64,000 bases of DNA, taken from NCBI GenBank assembly GCA_944325825.1, contig CALVBP010000005.1, positions 1 through 64,000 of the forward strand. The letters run 5' to 3'. The stretch is from Candidatus Gastranaerophilales bacterium. GTDB lineage: Bacteria > Cyanobacteriota > Vampirovibrionia > Gastranaerophilales > Gastranaerophilaceae. Under the pieces are notes generated by a model. That model saw only the letters and a list, made by a program, of their open reading frames with translations, searched no databases and was not told where the DNA came from. The position numbers and the translations under genes were made by a program. Positions 182 through 41,797 of the stretch are shown one piece after another (position 1 is the stretch's first letter; every line of letters starts with the position of its first letter).

Positions 182-210
182 AAAAAAAACTGACTCATGA
201 TGAAGCCAGT
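182..210 (-). terminator. Rho-independent terminator, minus strand
   Basis: Read on the minus strand, ACTGGCT and AGTCAGT pair over 7 bp with an 8-base loop and are followed by a run of T. It is the likely end of the transcript of the minus-strand regulator at 406-594. Confidence 0.6.
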
Positions 211-212
211 CT

Positions 213-405
213 AAGTATTTTCTCTAATAATTTTGGGAGGAGATTTGGGGATAGTTGATACATGGCATGCTACTATAAATTTTGTAATCATGGTACATGC
301 CTGACAAAAAGTTTTACAAAACTTAATACTTATTATTCAAATTAACTGGGCAGGGCAAAAGATTCCATTTATTGATTACATATAATGGCACAAAAAGACG
401 ACTAA
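213..405. other. Gene-free stretch with CATG cluster
   Basis: No credible coding frame is visible. The stretch contains four CATG tetramers in 39 bases (261-299) and, on the minus strand near 314-331, a variant of the AAGTTTTGTAAACTT palindrome seen exactly at 731-745 and 41711-41725. Its function is unknown. Confidence 0.5.
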
Positions 406-594
406 CTAACCAAGAAGCTCGGTTAACAAAGTTGCATTTTCTTCGGCTTTAAGGTTGTTAGAGATTTTGTTTCGTTTAATATATACTCTCAAAGCTTCAC
501 GAATCAATTCACTTCTTGTTCTTTGTTCGGAGTTAGCTATATTATCTACTTTAGTAAGAAAGTCGTTAGACATTGAAATCAATACACGTGCCAT
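406..594 (-). CDS. Ribbon-helix-helix (CopG/Arc-type) regulator
   Basis: This 62-residue protein has the CopG/MetJ/Arc pattern: a short N-terminal beta strand (MARVLISMS), then a helix-turn-helix-like pair with RTRSELIREALRVYI at about residues 25-39. Family members bind DNA as dimers and act as repressors or antitoxins. The ATG at 594 is chosen because GGAGGG lies just upstream; the longer upstream frame reads through the promoter. It is transcribed alone and divergently from the large gene at 824, and no toxin gene lies next to it. A solitary transcriptional regulator is therefore more likely than an antitoxin, but the target is unknown. Confidence 0.8.
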   Translation of the reverse strand: MARVLISMSNDFLTKVDNIANSEQRTRSELIREALRVYIKRNKISNNLKAEENATLLTELLG

Positions 595-690: not shown

Positions 691-770
691 CATGCTCAAA
701 CAAAGAAACGGCATGTGTTTCCATGATGTTAAGTTTTGTAAACTTCATGTTTTAAAAAAGTCAATTCATG
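691..770. promoter_or_regulatory. CATG cluster and AAGTTT-TGT-AAACTT palindrome
   Basis: Five CATG tetramers occur in 80 bases, at 691, 712, 722, 746 and 767. Between two of them lies the palindrome AAGTTTTGTAAACTT (731-745), inside a 22-base stretch (728-749) repeated exactly at 41708-41729. The position between the divergent genes at 594 and 824 suggests an operator region. This is inference. Confidence 0.4.
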
Positions 771-823: not shown

Positions 824-3079
824 ATGACGTTTCCATTTATGACAACAGGATTTACAGGATGGCGCCCATCATTTATTAACTTCCAGATGTGCAGTACTAA
901 TCCTATGAATTCAATGAATATTCTTTGGAACCAGCTCAATATGAAAAGTATTGCAAGCAGCATGGTTTACAATTATCCTGTTTTCTCAATGGATAATTAT
1001 ACTCCATTCTTTAACGGTACAAACAACGATTATTTGCTCAATCCGAATCTGGCAGCAATGCAGACTTTGTGGAATAACAATTCAAACGGAAATATTTGGG
1101 GTAACTATACTAACATCAATCCGTTTGGCAACTTTGATTTTGGCAAAATGTGGGAGGGTTTACGCAGCAGCGGTAACTCTAGCGGTGTAGTCGGTGACGA
1201 AAGAACAAAAACCTCAGAACAGATTAAGTACAACAAAAAATATAATAAATTGCTTTCTCTTATGAAACAGCTTAAAAATTCTGATAAGCTCAGTGACTCA
1301 GAAAAAGAGAATATTGAAGCAGCAATTATAGCAGATAATGAAAACCCTAACGGCGAATGGAAAGATAAGTTTAACGCATTAAAGGAAGCTTATGACAAAA
1401 TTAGTGATGCTAATATTAAAAACTATATAATTAATAGTATGGATGACAGTGTAAACGGAAAAACCGGTGTTGAAAATTCATTCAAAGTTCAATTAACAGA
1501 TGCTGGTTATGAATATAAAAAAGAGGATGTCGATAAAAAGATTCGTATTCTTGCAGATAATATCAAGGACTTAACTAATGATAATCCATCTATTGTGGCA
1601 GATAATCTTATAGCTGGTATTGAAGCGGGTTCAGTCAGTATTTTGGATGTTATAAGCAGTTGGAATACCAATTATGCAGACTCAACGGATAACGATAAAA
1701 AACGTTTGATTAAATATGTTGTTGCGAAATATAATGACTTAGATGATAATGGAAAAAGTGAAATAAAAAGTCAGCTTCTCGATCCGCTGGCAAGAGCATT
1801 AGAAGATAAAGCCGAGACTTTAGAAACAGAACTTGAAAATAAAGGTATAGATGCAGCTAATCTTACCAAAGCTTTGAAAGCATTAGAAGCTGTTCGTGAA
1901 GCAGAATCTCTTGATACTGATGACCTTGTAGAAGCATTTGATAATCTTTATCTTGCAACAAGATGGGCTGCAATAAAGGTTATTACTAAGGATGCTGAAG
2001 AATATTACGGCTCAATTGACAGCATGTTCGACAATGATCTCTTTGATACAGATACCGTTGATGACTTGAAATCAGAAGGTTTTACTGACGCAGAAATTAA
2101 TGCTCAAAAAGTTGACTATACGTCAATAGAACACGATGACAATGATGATAATGACGACGGAGATAACGACGATGACTATGGTGACACACCGGAAGCACAA
2201 ATAGAATATCTTAAAGAAGAGGGTTTAGTTGAAACTCTTCAAGGTAAAACTTATATAAATGGTGAAACTATTTACAGAGAAACAACACCAACCGGTGAAA
2301 ACGGAGAAGCAAGACTCTTTATACTCAAAGACGGAACGTTATATGAACTCACCGATCCTGTATTAAATGCTAACGGTAAATATGATGCAGACGCATTGAA
2401 GGCTGTTGGTGCTGAGGATATAAAAAACTACAAAGATGAAAAATTCGCTGCTGAAGAAGCCGAAGCTAAAAAGGCAGAAGAAGAAAATAAACTCGCTGAA
2501 ATGAAAGCAAAAGCTAAAACACAAGGCGAAGAGGCAATTAAAATTCTTACTGCAAGAAAAAATGAAGTTGTAAGTAACGATTATCGTGAATTGAATGATA
2601 CTTTAGCGGCCCTTAATAAAGATAATATTTTGAGTTTTATTGAGGGGGCAATAAATGCAAGCGAAGATGGTGAATTGCATATTATTAGCGAGTTGAATGA
2701 CCAGAAAAAGTTTATTGATTGGGAAAATAAAAAACATTTGATAACTGTTTTGATTGAGAAGGTAGAATCTTTAATCGAAGATATGGATAATAAAACTTCA
2801 ATTCAGGCCGCCTGTGAAGTATTAAAGGAAATGCGAGATAACGAAAAGAGTAATAAGAAAAAGAACTATCACCGTTATCTTGTTAAAGAAACAGTAGATA
2901 CATATAATTACCAAATACATAGAAATCAAGGAGAAGATGTGATTTCTCTTGAAACAAAAACATCTTTAACTATGGGATATTCATGTAAAGTCGCATACAT
3001 TGACTGCATTATTGATGATTTAATGCAATTCTTATATAACGAAATAAAGGCGATGGAAACACCTAAAACCGAAGAATAA
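824..3079 (+). CDS. Large acidic hypothetical protein
   Basis: I do not recognise this 751-residue protein. The first 120 residues are rich in N, W, F, M and G and carry no hydrophobic signal peptide. Residues from about 120 on are highly charged and helical, with long E/K/A stretches that look like coiled coil (about 540-575). A block at about 436-452 is almost entirely Asp and Asn and could bind cations. Aggregation-prone N-rich ends joined to helical bodies suggest an exported or surface-associated structural protein, but nothing proves this. A purine-rich AAGAGGAT stretch precedes the ATG. The gene ends 9 bases from the end of the convergent gene at 3089. Confidence 0.75.
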   Translation: MTFPFMTTGFTGWRPSFINFQMCSTNPMNSMNILWNQLNMKSIASSMVYNYPVFSMDNYTPFFNGTNNDYLLNPNLAAMQTLWNNNSNGNIWGNYTNINPFGNFDFGKMWEGLRSSGNSSGVVGDERTKTSEQIKYNKKYNKLLSLMKQLKNSDKLSDSEKENIEAAIIADNENPNGEWKDKFNALKEAYDKISDANIKNYIINSMDDSVNGKTGVENSFKVQLTDAGYEYKKEDVDKKIRILADNIKDLTNDNPSIVADNLIAGIEAGSVSILDVISSWNTNYADSTDNDKKRLIKYVVAKYNDLDDNGKSEIKSQLLDPLARALEDKAETLETELENKGIDAANLTKALKALEAVREAESLDTDDLVEAFDNLYLATRWAAIKVITKDAEEYYGSIDSMFDNDLFDTDTVDDLKSEGFTDAEINAQKVDYTSIEHDDNDDNDDGDNDDDYGDTPEAQIEYLKEEGLVETLQGKTYINGETIYRETTPTGENGEARLFILKDGTLYELTDPVLNANGKYDADALKAVGAEDIKNYKDEKFAAEEAEAKKAEEENKLAEMKAKAKTQGEEAIKILTARKNEVVSNDYRELNDTLAALNKDNILSFIEGAINASEDGELHIISELNDQKKFIDWENKKHLITVLIEKVESLIEDMDNKTSIQAACEVLKEMRDNEKSNKKKNYHRYLVKETVDTYNYQIHRNQGEDVISLETKTSLTMGYSCKVAYIDCIIDDLMQFLYNEIKAMETPKTEE

Positions 3080-32680: not shown

Positions 32681-33031
32681 ACACATATCTTCTAATGTAA
32701 TACATAGATTATATCAACATAGATATATATTTAAAAGCAGAGCAAAATCAAAATTGCTATTATGAGAATAAATGTAAAGAAAATATTAAGAAGAAATTTT
32801 GAATGTTTTTTTCGTGTAAGGAAACTTTTTTAAAAAATACCCGATATGAAATAAAAACCTCAAAATCAATATTAACCTAAACTTTAAAACTATTAAAAAC
32901 TCAGGCATGAAATATTGTAAAATTTTGTAAAGATTTTGTATGCGCTTAAAAACTCCTTGCACTATACTTTAGGTTTGAATCATGTTATTATGAAAGAAAG
33001 TGTTTGTTATTTTTTTGAAGAGGACGACTGG
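32681..33031 (+). other. A/T-rich gene-free stretch before surE
   Basis: No credible gene is visible. Features are a weak sigma-28-like GAAA-N16-CCGATAT (32821-32847), a GGCATG at 32904-32909 followed by two TTTTGTAAA-like strings, and CTTGCACTATACT near 32951-32963 that may supply a -10 for surE. The function of the rest is unknown. Confidence 0.35.
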
Positions 33032-40298: not shown

Positions 40299-40805
40299 TT
40301 ATAGAGGTTTGTTCCACAGAGATTCAGCAAATTTGCTCTGAACAGCACCGTTTTCAACAGAAAGAGAAACGTTGCTCGGAGTAAAGATAAATACCATATC
40401 ACTGATTTTTTGCGGTGTACCATTCAACGCATGTGCTGCGCCGCAAACAAAGTCAATTGTTCTTTGAGATTGTTCTTTATCTAACAAATCAAGATGAAGA
40501 ATAACTGTTTTCTTGTCAATTAATTTTTTAACAATTTGAGCAGATTCACTGAATGAACGAGGTTCAATAACAGTTACTTCACCTGTTTTGTAATTATTTG
40601 GATGAGAAACAACTTTTGAATCTCTTTCAAAAGAGCGTTCAGGTTTAACTCTTGTTTCATACATAGTATCTAAAGCCAGATTTCTGTCTGTAATATAATC
40701 ATTATCATTTTCTACTAAATCCATGAAAGCATCGTCTTCGCTTCCGTCATTGAAACTCTTAGTGAAAAAATTCACAAACCCTTTTAACCCTTCTGATAGT
40801 GCCAT
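40299..40805 (-). CDS. sepF: Cell division protein SepF
   Basis: SepF anchors FtsZ to the membrane and supports septum formation in Gram-positives and cyanobacteria. The 168-residue protein has an amphipathic N-terminal helix (MALSEGLKGFVNFFTKSF), an acidic linker and the C-terminal SepF domain (about 75-155) with KKTVILHLDLLDKEQSQRTI and the VCGAAHALNG turn. It follows yggS by 17 bases, the usual yggS-sepF pairing. Confidence 0.96.
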   Translation of the reverse strand: MALSEGLKGFVNFFTKSFNDGSEDDAFMDLVENDNDYITDRNLALDTMYETRVKPERSFERDSKVVSHPNNYKTGEVTVIEPRSFSESAQIVKKLIDKKTVILHLDLLDKEQSQRTIDFVCGAAHALNGTPQKISDMVFIFTPSNVSLSVENGAVQSKFAESLWNKPL

Positions 40806-40822
40806 TATTCCTCCAATATATC

Positions 40823-41575
40823 TTACTTAGTAAACAATTTTCTACCTAATCTAATCATCGTCGCACCTTCTTTAACTGCGAATTTATAATCGTTTGTCAT
40901 ACCCATAGAAAGTTCCGGCAATTTTATTTCGAACTCATTTTCCAACTCATCCCTAAACTTTCTTACATCGGCGAACAAAGCTGATAGTTCTTCTCCCGAT
41001 GCATCAATCGGTGCCATATTCATAAGCCCGCAAATTTCAATAGAGTCAAGCTTAAGAATTTCCGGAAAATCTTCTCTCAGCTGTTGTTTTGAGTATCCGG
41101 ATTTCTGCTCTTCGCCGGCATTATTAACCTGCAATAAAATTCTCTCACTCTTGTTTAAACGGCAGGCTGACTTGGATATTTCACGAGCAAGCTTGAGAGA
41201 ATCGACAGAGTCAATATAATCAAAATATTTGACAACTTTCTCAACCTTATTCGTTTGCAAATGCCCGATGAAGTGGAATGTGGAGTTTTTCTTAATCTCA
41301 TCCGGCAGTTCTTGAATCTTTTTAACAGCTTCCTGAGCTCTGGATTCGCCAAACTCTCTTAGTCCTGCTTCATATCCGGTTATTATTGCATGTAACCCGT
41401 AATACTTTGTAACTGCGATTATTCTTGGTTTATAAGGTACGATATCATTTTGAATGTTGAGAATACTCTGCTCTATGAGGTTTTTATCAAACAAGACATC
41501 TTCGCCCCAGTGATTTGAAGGAATCAAACCTTCTGCGGTTTTGTGATTGTCTGTATATTCTCCTGTCTGAGACAT
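40823..41575 (-). CDS. yggS: PLP homeostasis protein (YggS/PLPBP family)
   Basis: YggS binds pyridoxal phosphate without a classical catalytic reaction and buffers vitamin B6 and amino-acid levels. The PLP lysine is Lys57 (IIAVTKYYG). GYEAGLREFGESRAQEA and FIGHLQTNKV follow the family pattern, with the C-terminal SMGMTNDYKFAVKEGATMIR. GGGAGG lies before the ATG. The first gene of a yggS-sepF operon, preceded by a sigma-70-like promoter at 41596-41625. Confidence 0.95.
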   Translation of the reverse strand: MSQTGEYTDNHKTAEGLIPSNHWGEDVLFDKNLIEQSILNIQNDIVPYKPRIIAVTKYYGLHAIITGYEAGLREFGESRAQEAVKKIQELPDEIKKNSTFHFIGHLQTNKVEKVVKYFDYIDSVDSLKLAREISKSACRLNKSERILLQVNNAGEEQKSGYSKQQLREDFPEILKLDSIEICGLMNMAPIDASGEELSALFADVRKFRDELENEFEIKLPELSMGMTNDYKFAVKEGATMIRLGRKLFTK

Positions 41576-41595: not shown

Positions 41596-41625
41596 ATTAT
41601 ATACTACATCTCATGCCCTGTACAA
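41596..41625 (-). promoter_or_regulatory. Sigma-70-type promoter for yggS-sepF
   Basis: On the minus strand TTGTAC (41620-41625) and TATAAT (41596-41601) are separated by 18 bases. The spacer contains GGCATGAG, one of the many CATG motifs of this region. Confidence 0.6.
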
Positions 41626-41661
41626 GTAGCATATTGTAACAGTTTTTTTGATTTTGGCTCT

Positions 41662-41797
41662 CATGCTGAAACCCATGATTCACATGGATTTCAACCATGT
41701 TTAAATTGTTAAGTTTTGTAAACTTCATGACTTTTGTTAAGAACTTGACAAGATTTTTCCATGTTTTTTTAAAAAATTGGCATGCCCTTATGTCATG
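41662..41797. promoter_or_regulatory. CATG-rich intergenic array
   Basis: Eight CATG tetramers occur in 136 bases. They include an imperfect inverted repeat (41667-41677 against 41683-41693, 10 of 11 pairs matching), the palindrome AAGTTTTGTAAACTT (41711-41725) and GGCATGCC (41779-41786). The array lies upstream of yggS on minus and downstream of the flgE terminator. It probably contains protein-binding sites. The bound factor is unknown. Confidence 0.45.

Follow-up and report, generated by a model that had tools for sequence, protein, structure and literature searches.

Conserved CATG arrays at a few Gastranaerophilales promoters as putative multi-site operators

Ribbon-helix-helix (RHH) repressors such as MetJ, CopG and Arc bind operator arrays in which short palindromic cores follow one another at about one helical turn or less and are occupied by several small dimers. 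Another RHH protein, the cell-cycle regulator aCcr1 of the Sulfolobales, represses a cell-division gene (PMC12796447 and references there). The HLR1 element of the cyanobacterial regulator RpaB has the consensus (G/T)TTACA(T/A)(T/A)NN(G/T)TTACA(T/A)(T/A) (PMC11633204), and the cyanobacterial small RNA Yfr1 has two stem-loops separated by an unpaired stretch that contains ACUCCUCACAC (PMC2190773).

The Gastranaerophilales are non-photosynthetic gut relatives of cyanobacteria whose gene regulation is little known; our literature searches returned no paper on regulators of this order or on CATG arrays such as those described here. We analysed the first 64,000 nucleotides of contig CALVBP010000005.1 of a Candidatus Gastranaerophilales bacterium (assembly GCA_944325825.1), hereafter the window, together with the remainder of the genome and its relatives.

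Distribution of CATG in the window and the genome

An earlier note on the window had pointed to dense clusters of CATG in intergenic DNA, and its positions and counts were exact: nine copies lie within 41612-41797 (41612, 41662, 41674, 41683, 41696, 41726, 41760, 41781 and 41794), five within 691-770 (691, 712, 722, 746 and 767) and four within 261-299 (261, 266, 289 and 296). The clustering is genuine and stronger than chance would produce. Markov models of order 1 and of order 2 were used to simulate the window 300 times each. In none of these 600 simulations did a 186-base stretch contain more than six copies, against nine observed, or a 136-base stretch more than six, against eight, so that the density at 41612-41797 was above that of every simulation. 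By density alone the other two clusters are only events of about 1%, and their support must therefore come from conservation. Over the whole window CATG is scarce, with 122 copies against 194 in dinucleotide shuffles; coding DNA holds 91 against 148 expected and intergenic DNA 31 against 15.

The genome comprises 1.85 Mb in 57 contigs, of which about 828 kb (about 45%) were sampled as stretches and annotated with a crude home-made gene caller. In this sample coding DNA contained 1175 CATG against 1761 expected, and intergenic DNA outside the arrays contained 114 against 95, which implies that the intergenic excess lies almost wholly inside the arrays. Single sites are enriched slightly at most, close to the lack of genome-wide intergenic enrichment that the note had named as a ground for refutation. 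Intergenic arrays were found at four places in the sample: array A upstream of yggS-sepF, array B at a gene for a 71-aa protein next to the ribosome-hibernation gene HPF, array C at a predicted small RNA and array D at 691-770 (Table 1). The three clusters in the window belong to different kinds of locus, array C marking a small-RNA promoter and array D a clade-specific divergent promoter region.

Other dense spots were set aside, as three of them (C6, C9 and C28) fell inside called genes, one (C12) lay beside a recombinase-like fragment, and an apparent array in L302 was within an open frame. A whole-genome scan for CATG triplets added several short groups to the four arrays. Near-identical triplets were seen near two contig ends (G000:C7:63-80 and G000:C15:41746-41763), perhaps copies of one repeat. 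Inspection by eye revealed no DnaA-box or parS-like sequence that would suggest a replication origin or partition site. Two further observations concern the genome at large: GATC, CGCG, GGCC and CTAG are strongly depleted, with coding ratios of 0.15, 0.10, 0.33 and 0.30 in the window plus a 464-kb sample, and contig G000:C3 (96915 bases) received only 21 gene calls, so it would contain very long open frames.

It had also been proposed that single GGCATG or CATGCC sites mark the promoters of smc, rpmI, surE and other genes. As a class this was not borne out: intergenic GGCATG outside arrays numbered 8 against 5.4 expected in the 828-kb sample, and a scan of offsets to -10 boxes found no excess of GGCATG at any distance. 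For single CATG the same scan gave one notable excess only, 11 cases in which CATG, one base and the -10 hexamer follow each other, an arrangement that fits the extended -10 (TGn). The part of the proposal that stood is the CATG in the spacer of the yggS promoter, whose alignment columns are 0.97-1.00 identical.

Table 1. Features of the four array loci; coordinates are those of the window unless a contig is named.
Feature	Coordinates	Strand	Basis or remark
Predicted small RNA, about 85 nt	182..266	-	C-rich unpaired 5' half, terminator at 3' end
Array C, four CATG across the small-RNA promoter	261..299	-	sequence and conservation
HLR1-like repeat TTTACAAAACTTAATA beside array C	313..328	+	sequence
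62-aa RHH protein, candidate CATG binder	406..594	-	PF01402
Array D, five CATG, between RHH gene and 751-aa gene	691..770	.	near relatives only
HLR1-like repeat in array D	727-742	-	sequence
751-aa protein gene flanking array D	824..3079	+	in 12/37 relatives
sepF (cell division), gene following yggS	40299..40805	-	PF04472
yggS-like gene, alanine racemase N-terminal domain	40823..41575	-	PF01168
Predicted yggS promoter TTGTAC-N18-TATAAT, spacer CATG at 41612-41615	41596..41625	-	sequence
Array A, eight CATG	41662..41797	.	upstream of yggS-sepF (both minus), downstream of flgE; conserved in genus
Array A core CATGGTTGAAATCCATGTGAATCATGGGTTTCAGCATG	41662..41699	-	conserved in genus
HLR1-like direct repeat TTTACAAAACTTAACAAT in array A	41705..41722	-	one mismatch to published HLR1 consensus (PMC11633204)
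Another repeat-like element TTGTCAAGTTCTTAACAAA	41733..41751	-	conserved in alignment
71-aa Cys-rich protein gene	L108 (contig C17) 5682-5897	-	CxC-x2-C motif plus a fourth conserved cysteine
Array B	contig C17:6092-6194		between murF and 71-aa gene, HPF next after that gene

Conservation of the arrays and their neighbourhoods

Conservation in relatives, whose absence the note had named as a further ground for refutation, was clearly found for arrays A, B and C, each of them across the genus. In array A, the core (CATGGGTTTYRGCATG, at most one mismatch) occurs in 52 of the 58 genus genomes, mostly as a single copy each, and its two central CATGs are 100% identical in the alignment of 32 sequences. 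Around it, the minus strand is fixed in the genus in several blocks, namely GGCATGCC, TTGTCAAGTTCTTAACAAAA, ACTTTACAAAACTTAACA, CATGGTCGAAATCCATG-N5-CATGGGTTTCRGCATG and GTTGTTACAAA, followed by the promoter block TTGTAC...CATG...TATATAAT. Among the arrays, species differ by the gain or loss of entire CATG units, for example with nine to eleven copies in L029 and L034 and ten in L211. In most other families array A is weak or absent (0 to 4 CATG).

In array B, CATGCCAACATCTTTACAAAACTTAA precedes a group of four CATG spread over about 33 bases and at least two further copies; between relatives its spacers vary while the CATGs persist. The 420 bases upstream of orthologues of the 71-aa gene hold five to seven CATG in families f4, f5, f6 and f7; for f2 and f3 the number is one to three. 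Judged from these sequences, the conservation of array B reaches four other Gastranaerophilales families beyond its own family, f1.

The prediction of a minus-strand small RNA at array C is based on a -10 box at 272-277 and on a terminator whose end lies near 182. Its C-rich 5' half (AUCCCC, UCUCCUCCC) forms a near-invariant core in 51 sequences and is complementary to Shine-Dalgarno sequences. The helix of the terminator is kept through changes on both sides in the same sequences, and the consensus fold comprises this 3' stem only. An exact 26-base core was found on 55 contigs, many of them from Candidatus Gastranaerophilales and the rest mostly from gut bacteria; the RNA had no Rfam match above threshold. 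The relatives L172 and L186 lack an ATG that is otherwise present near the 5' end, yet the bases downstream of it are fixed, which makes a protein-coding role unlikely.

Array D is conserved only in near relatives, namely L046 and, in part, L047 and L048. The 751-aa protein at its side matched no Pfam family at E 0.001. On the other side, between arrays C and D, lies the gene of a small RHH protein with matches in 58/58 genus genomes and 15/15 genomes of other families; its predicted structure has the helices expected of the fold, and it resembles solved RHH regulators and antitoxins.

HLR1-like direct repeats, for example TTTACAAAACTTAACA, lie beside or within all four arrays. In the 828-kb sample a relaxed pattern with period 10 matched 31 intergenic and 0 coding places, and strict matches elsewhere than array A numbered 11 intergenic and 0 coding; control patterns with period 9 or 11 gave near zero. 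Examples in the window lie at 32914, 39551 and 41705. A response regulator encoded on contig C2 has as its best NCBIfam model the cyanobacterial RpaB, with 209 bits, below the cut-off of 330. Several genes also share a promoter-like ACTTTATATATATAA box in their upstream DNA (at 784-800 in the window and in L083, L088, L095 and L100), often beside HLR1-like repeats.

A putative composite operator and its alternatives

At three loci no tetramer is as over-represented as CATG, which exceeds expectation 11.7-fold in array A (32 sequences), 13.2-fold in array B (29) and 12.6-fold in array C (75), and its columns are better conserved than the others, with mean identities of 0.95 against 0.72 in A, 0.88 against 0.66 in B and 0.86 against 0.72 in C. 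In 11 of 12 genus genomes tight CATG triplets outnumbered a reversed-pattern control. Together with the gain and loss of whole units, and with conservation that is genus-wide and in part order-wide, these results favour the suggestion of the earlier note that a regulator recognising a CATG core uses the clusters as operators. We consider it probable (about 0.7) that the clustered CATGs form a multi-site operator for a CATG-recognising regulator which acts with an RpaB-like response regulator.

Such a regulator would be a sequence-specific protein that recognises the palindrome CATG, probably as a dimer with one CATG per dimer. Neighbouring copies, which are most often 8-13 bases apart in A and B (5, 7, 10 and 23 in C), would be bound cooperatively, and at each of a few sigma-70-type promoters the protein would occupy some four to eleven CATG copies. 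An RpaB/WalR-like response regulator of the OmpR/PhoB type may provide a second input, acting on the HLR1-like repeats within or next to every array. The array is located upstream of the promoter for yggS-sepF and for the Cys-rich gene, and spans the core promoter for the small RNA; the sign of regulation may therefore differ between targets. It is conceivable, and we put it forward tentatively, that the two proteins, the second of a kind shared with photosynthetic cyanobacteria, couple division through yggS-sepF with the HPF neighbourhood and the C-rich small RNA.

As to the protein itself, the RHH protein encoded between arrays C and D is the most plausible candidate CATG binder seen, and even so its candidacy is doubtful. 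Its gene adjoins the small RNA on only about 35 of the 55 contigs, the presence of an array in its own promoter is confined to the closest relatives, and the protein is also present in f2 and f3, families without array B. Less likely still is the 71-aa Cys-rich protein as regulator of its own gene, of yggS-sepF and of the small RNA. This gene carries the most deeply conserved array (f1 and f4-f7), and the protein was found in 58/58 genus genomes and in 14/15 genomes of other families; however, f2 and f3 have orthologues without arrays, no Pfam or NCBIfam match was obtained, and the structural model is of low confidence (mean pLDDT 66), with no structural match with E below 4.

Three explanations dispense with an operator. 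CATG is a known target word of methyltransferases (NlaIII-type enzymes), and the earlier note had offered as an alternative that the clusters are sites for an epigenetic methyltransferase. The enzyme would be a DNA adenine methyltransferase, and its modification of the arrays would form an epigenetic promoter switch. The deficit of CATG in coding DNA is what avoidance would give, but other palindromes are far more depleted there (GATC and CGCG above all). Moreover, a D12-family methyltransferase occurs in 26 of the 58 genus genomes and was not found in this one, while the arrays are near-universal, and we regard this explanation as quite improbable. Called genes of the 45% sample showed no amino-methyltransferase motif, a weak result because only that share of the genome was read and the search also missed universal methyltransferases. 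That the stretch of array A is part of an RNA (a hairpin leader or a small RNA), with CATG recurring through self-pairing, is very unlikely: in several species the RNA form of GAAATCCATG-N5-CATGGGTTTC could form a helix, one of its pairs being G-U, yet this pairing is broken in relatives such as L028, L035 and L036 while the CATGs persist, the array lies upstream of the predicted promoter, and no Rfam match rose above threshold. Least credible of all are chance clusters in AT-rich intergenic DNA whose apparent conservation reflects short evolutionary distance. The modest density of arrays C and D and the restriction of D to near relatives speak for it; nevertheless, array A surpassed all simulations, the spacers of A and B have diverged around conserved CATGs, and the persistence of array B across families already contradicts this explanation.

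Present at the same small set of promoters, the conserved composite element provides a defined bait for the isolation of a lineage-specific regulator, and it links a division operon, the HPF neighbourhood and an undescribed small RNA. The repeats in turn suggest that regulation of the HLR1 type extends beyond photosynthetic cyanobacteria.

Comparison with described systems

The predicted RNA at array C resembles Yfr1 in being short, with an ultraconserved unpaired stretch containing CUCCUC and a terminator (PMC2190773). It does not, however, fit the description of Yfr1: in place of the undecamer it has CUCCUCCC, and no 5' stem-loop is predicted. It appears to be an undescribed small RNA that recalls Yfr1 in design.

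With the HLR1/RpaB system the locus shares direct repeats of the TTTACA/TTAACA type with period 10, which accompany the arrays and recur at about 30 further intergenic positions of the 828-kb sample, and the presence of an RpaB-like regulator. It differs in that one half-site is often TTAACA, the lineage is non-photosynthetic, the regulator scores below the RpaB cut-off, and a CATG array is absent from descriptions of HLR1 in the literature searched. These features suggest an RpaB-like regulon in a non-photosynthetic lineage.

The RHH protein, like aCcr1, is small and of the same fold, and it matches the aCcr1 model (NF053762) weakly, with 31 bits against a cut-off of 60; it is therefore not a member of that family.

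As in the arrays of MetJ, CopG and Arc, a short palindromic core is repeated at the loci described here. The core is in this case CATG, there are more copies per promoter, and the spacing of 4 to 13 bases, at times longer, is non-uniform, unlike that of well-studied tandem operators. While the recognition word CATG, its regulator and its targets appear to be undescribed in the literature searched, the operator array as such would be of a known kind.
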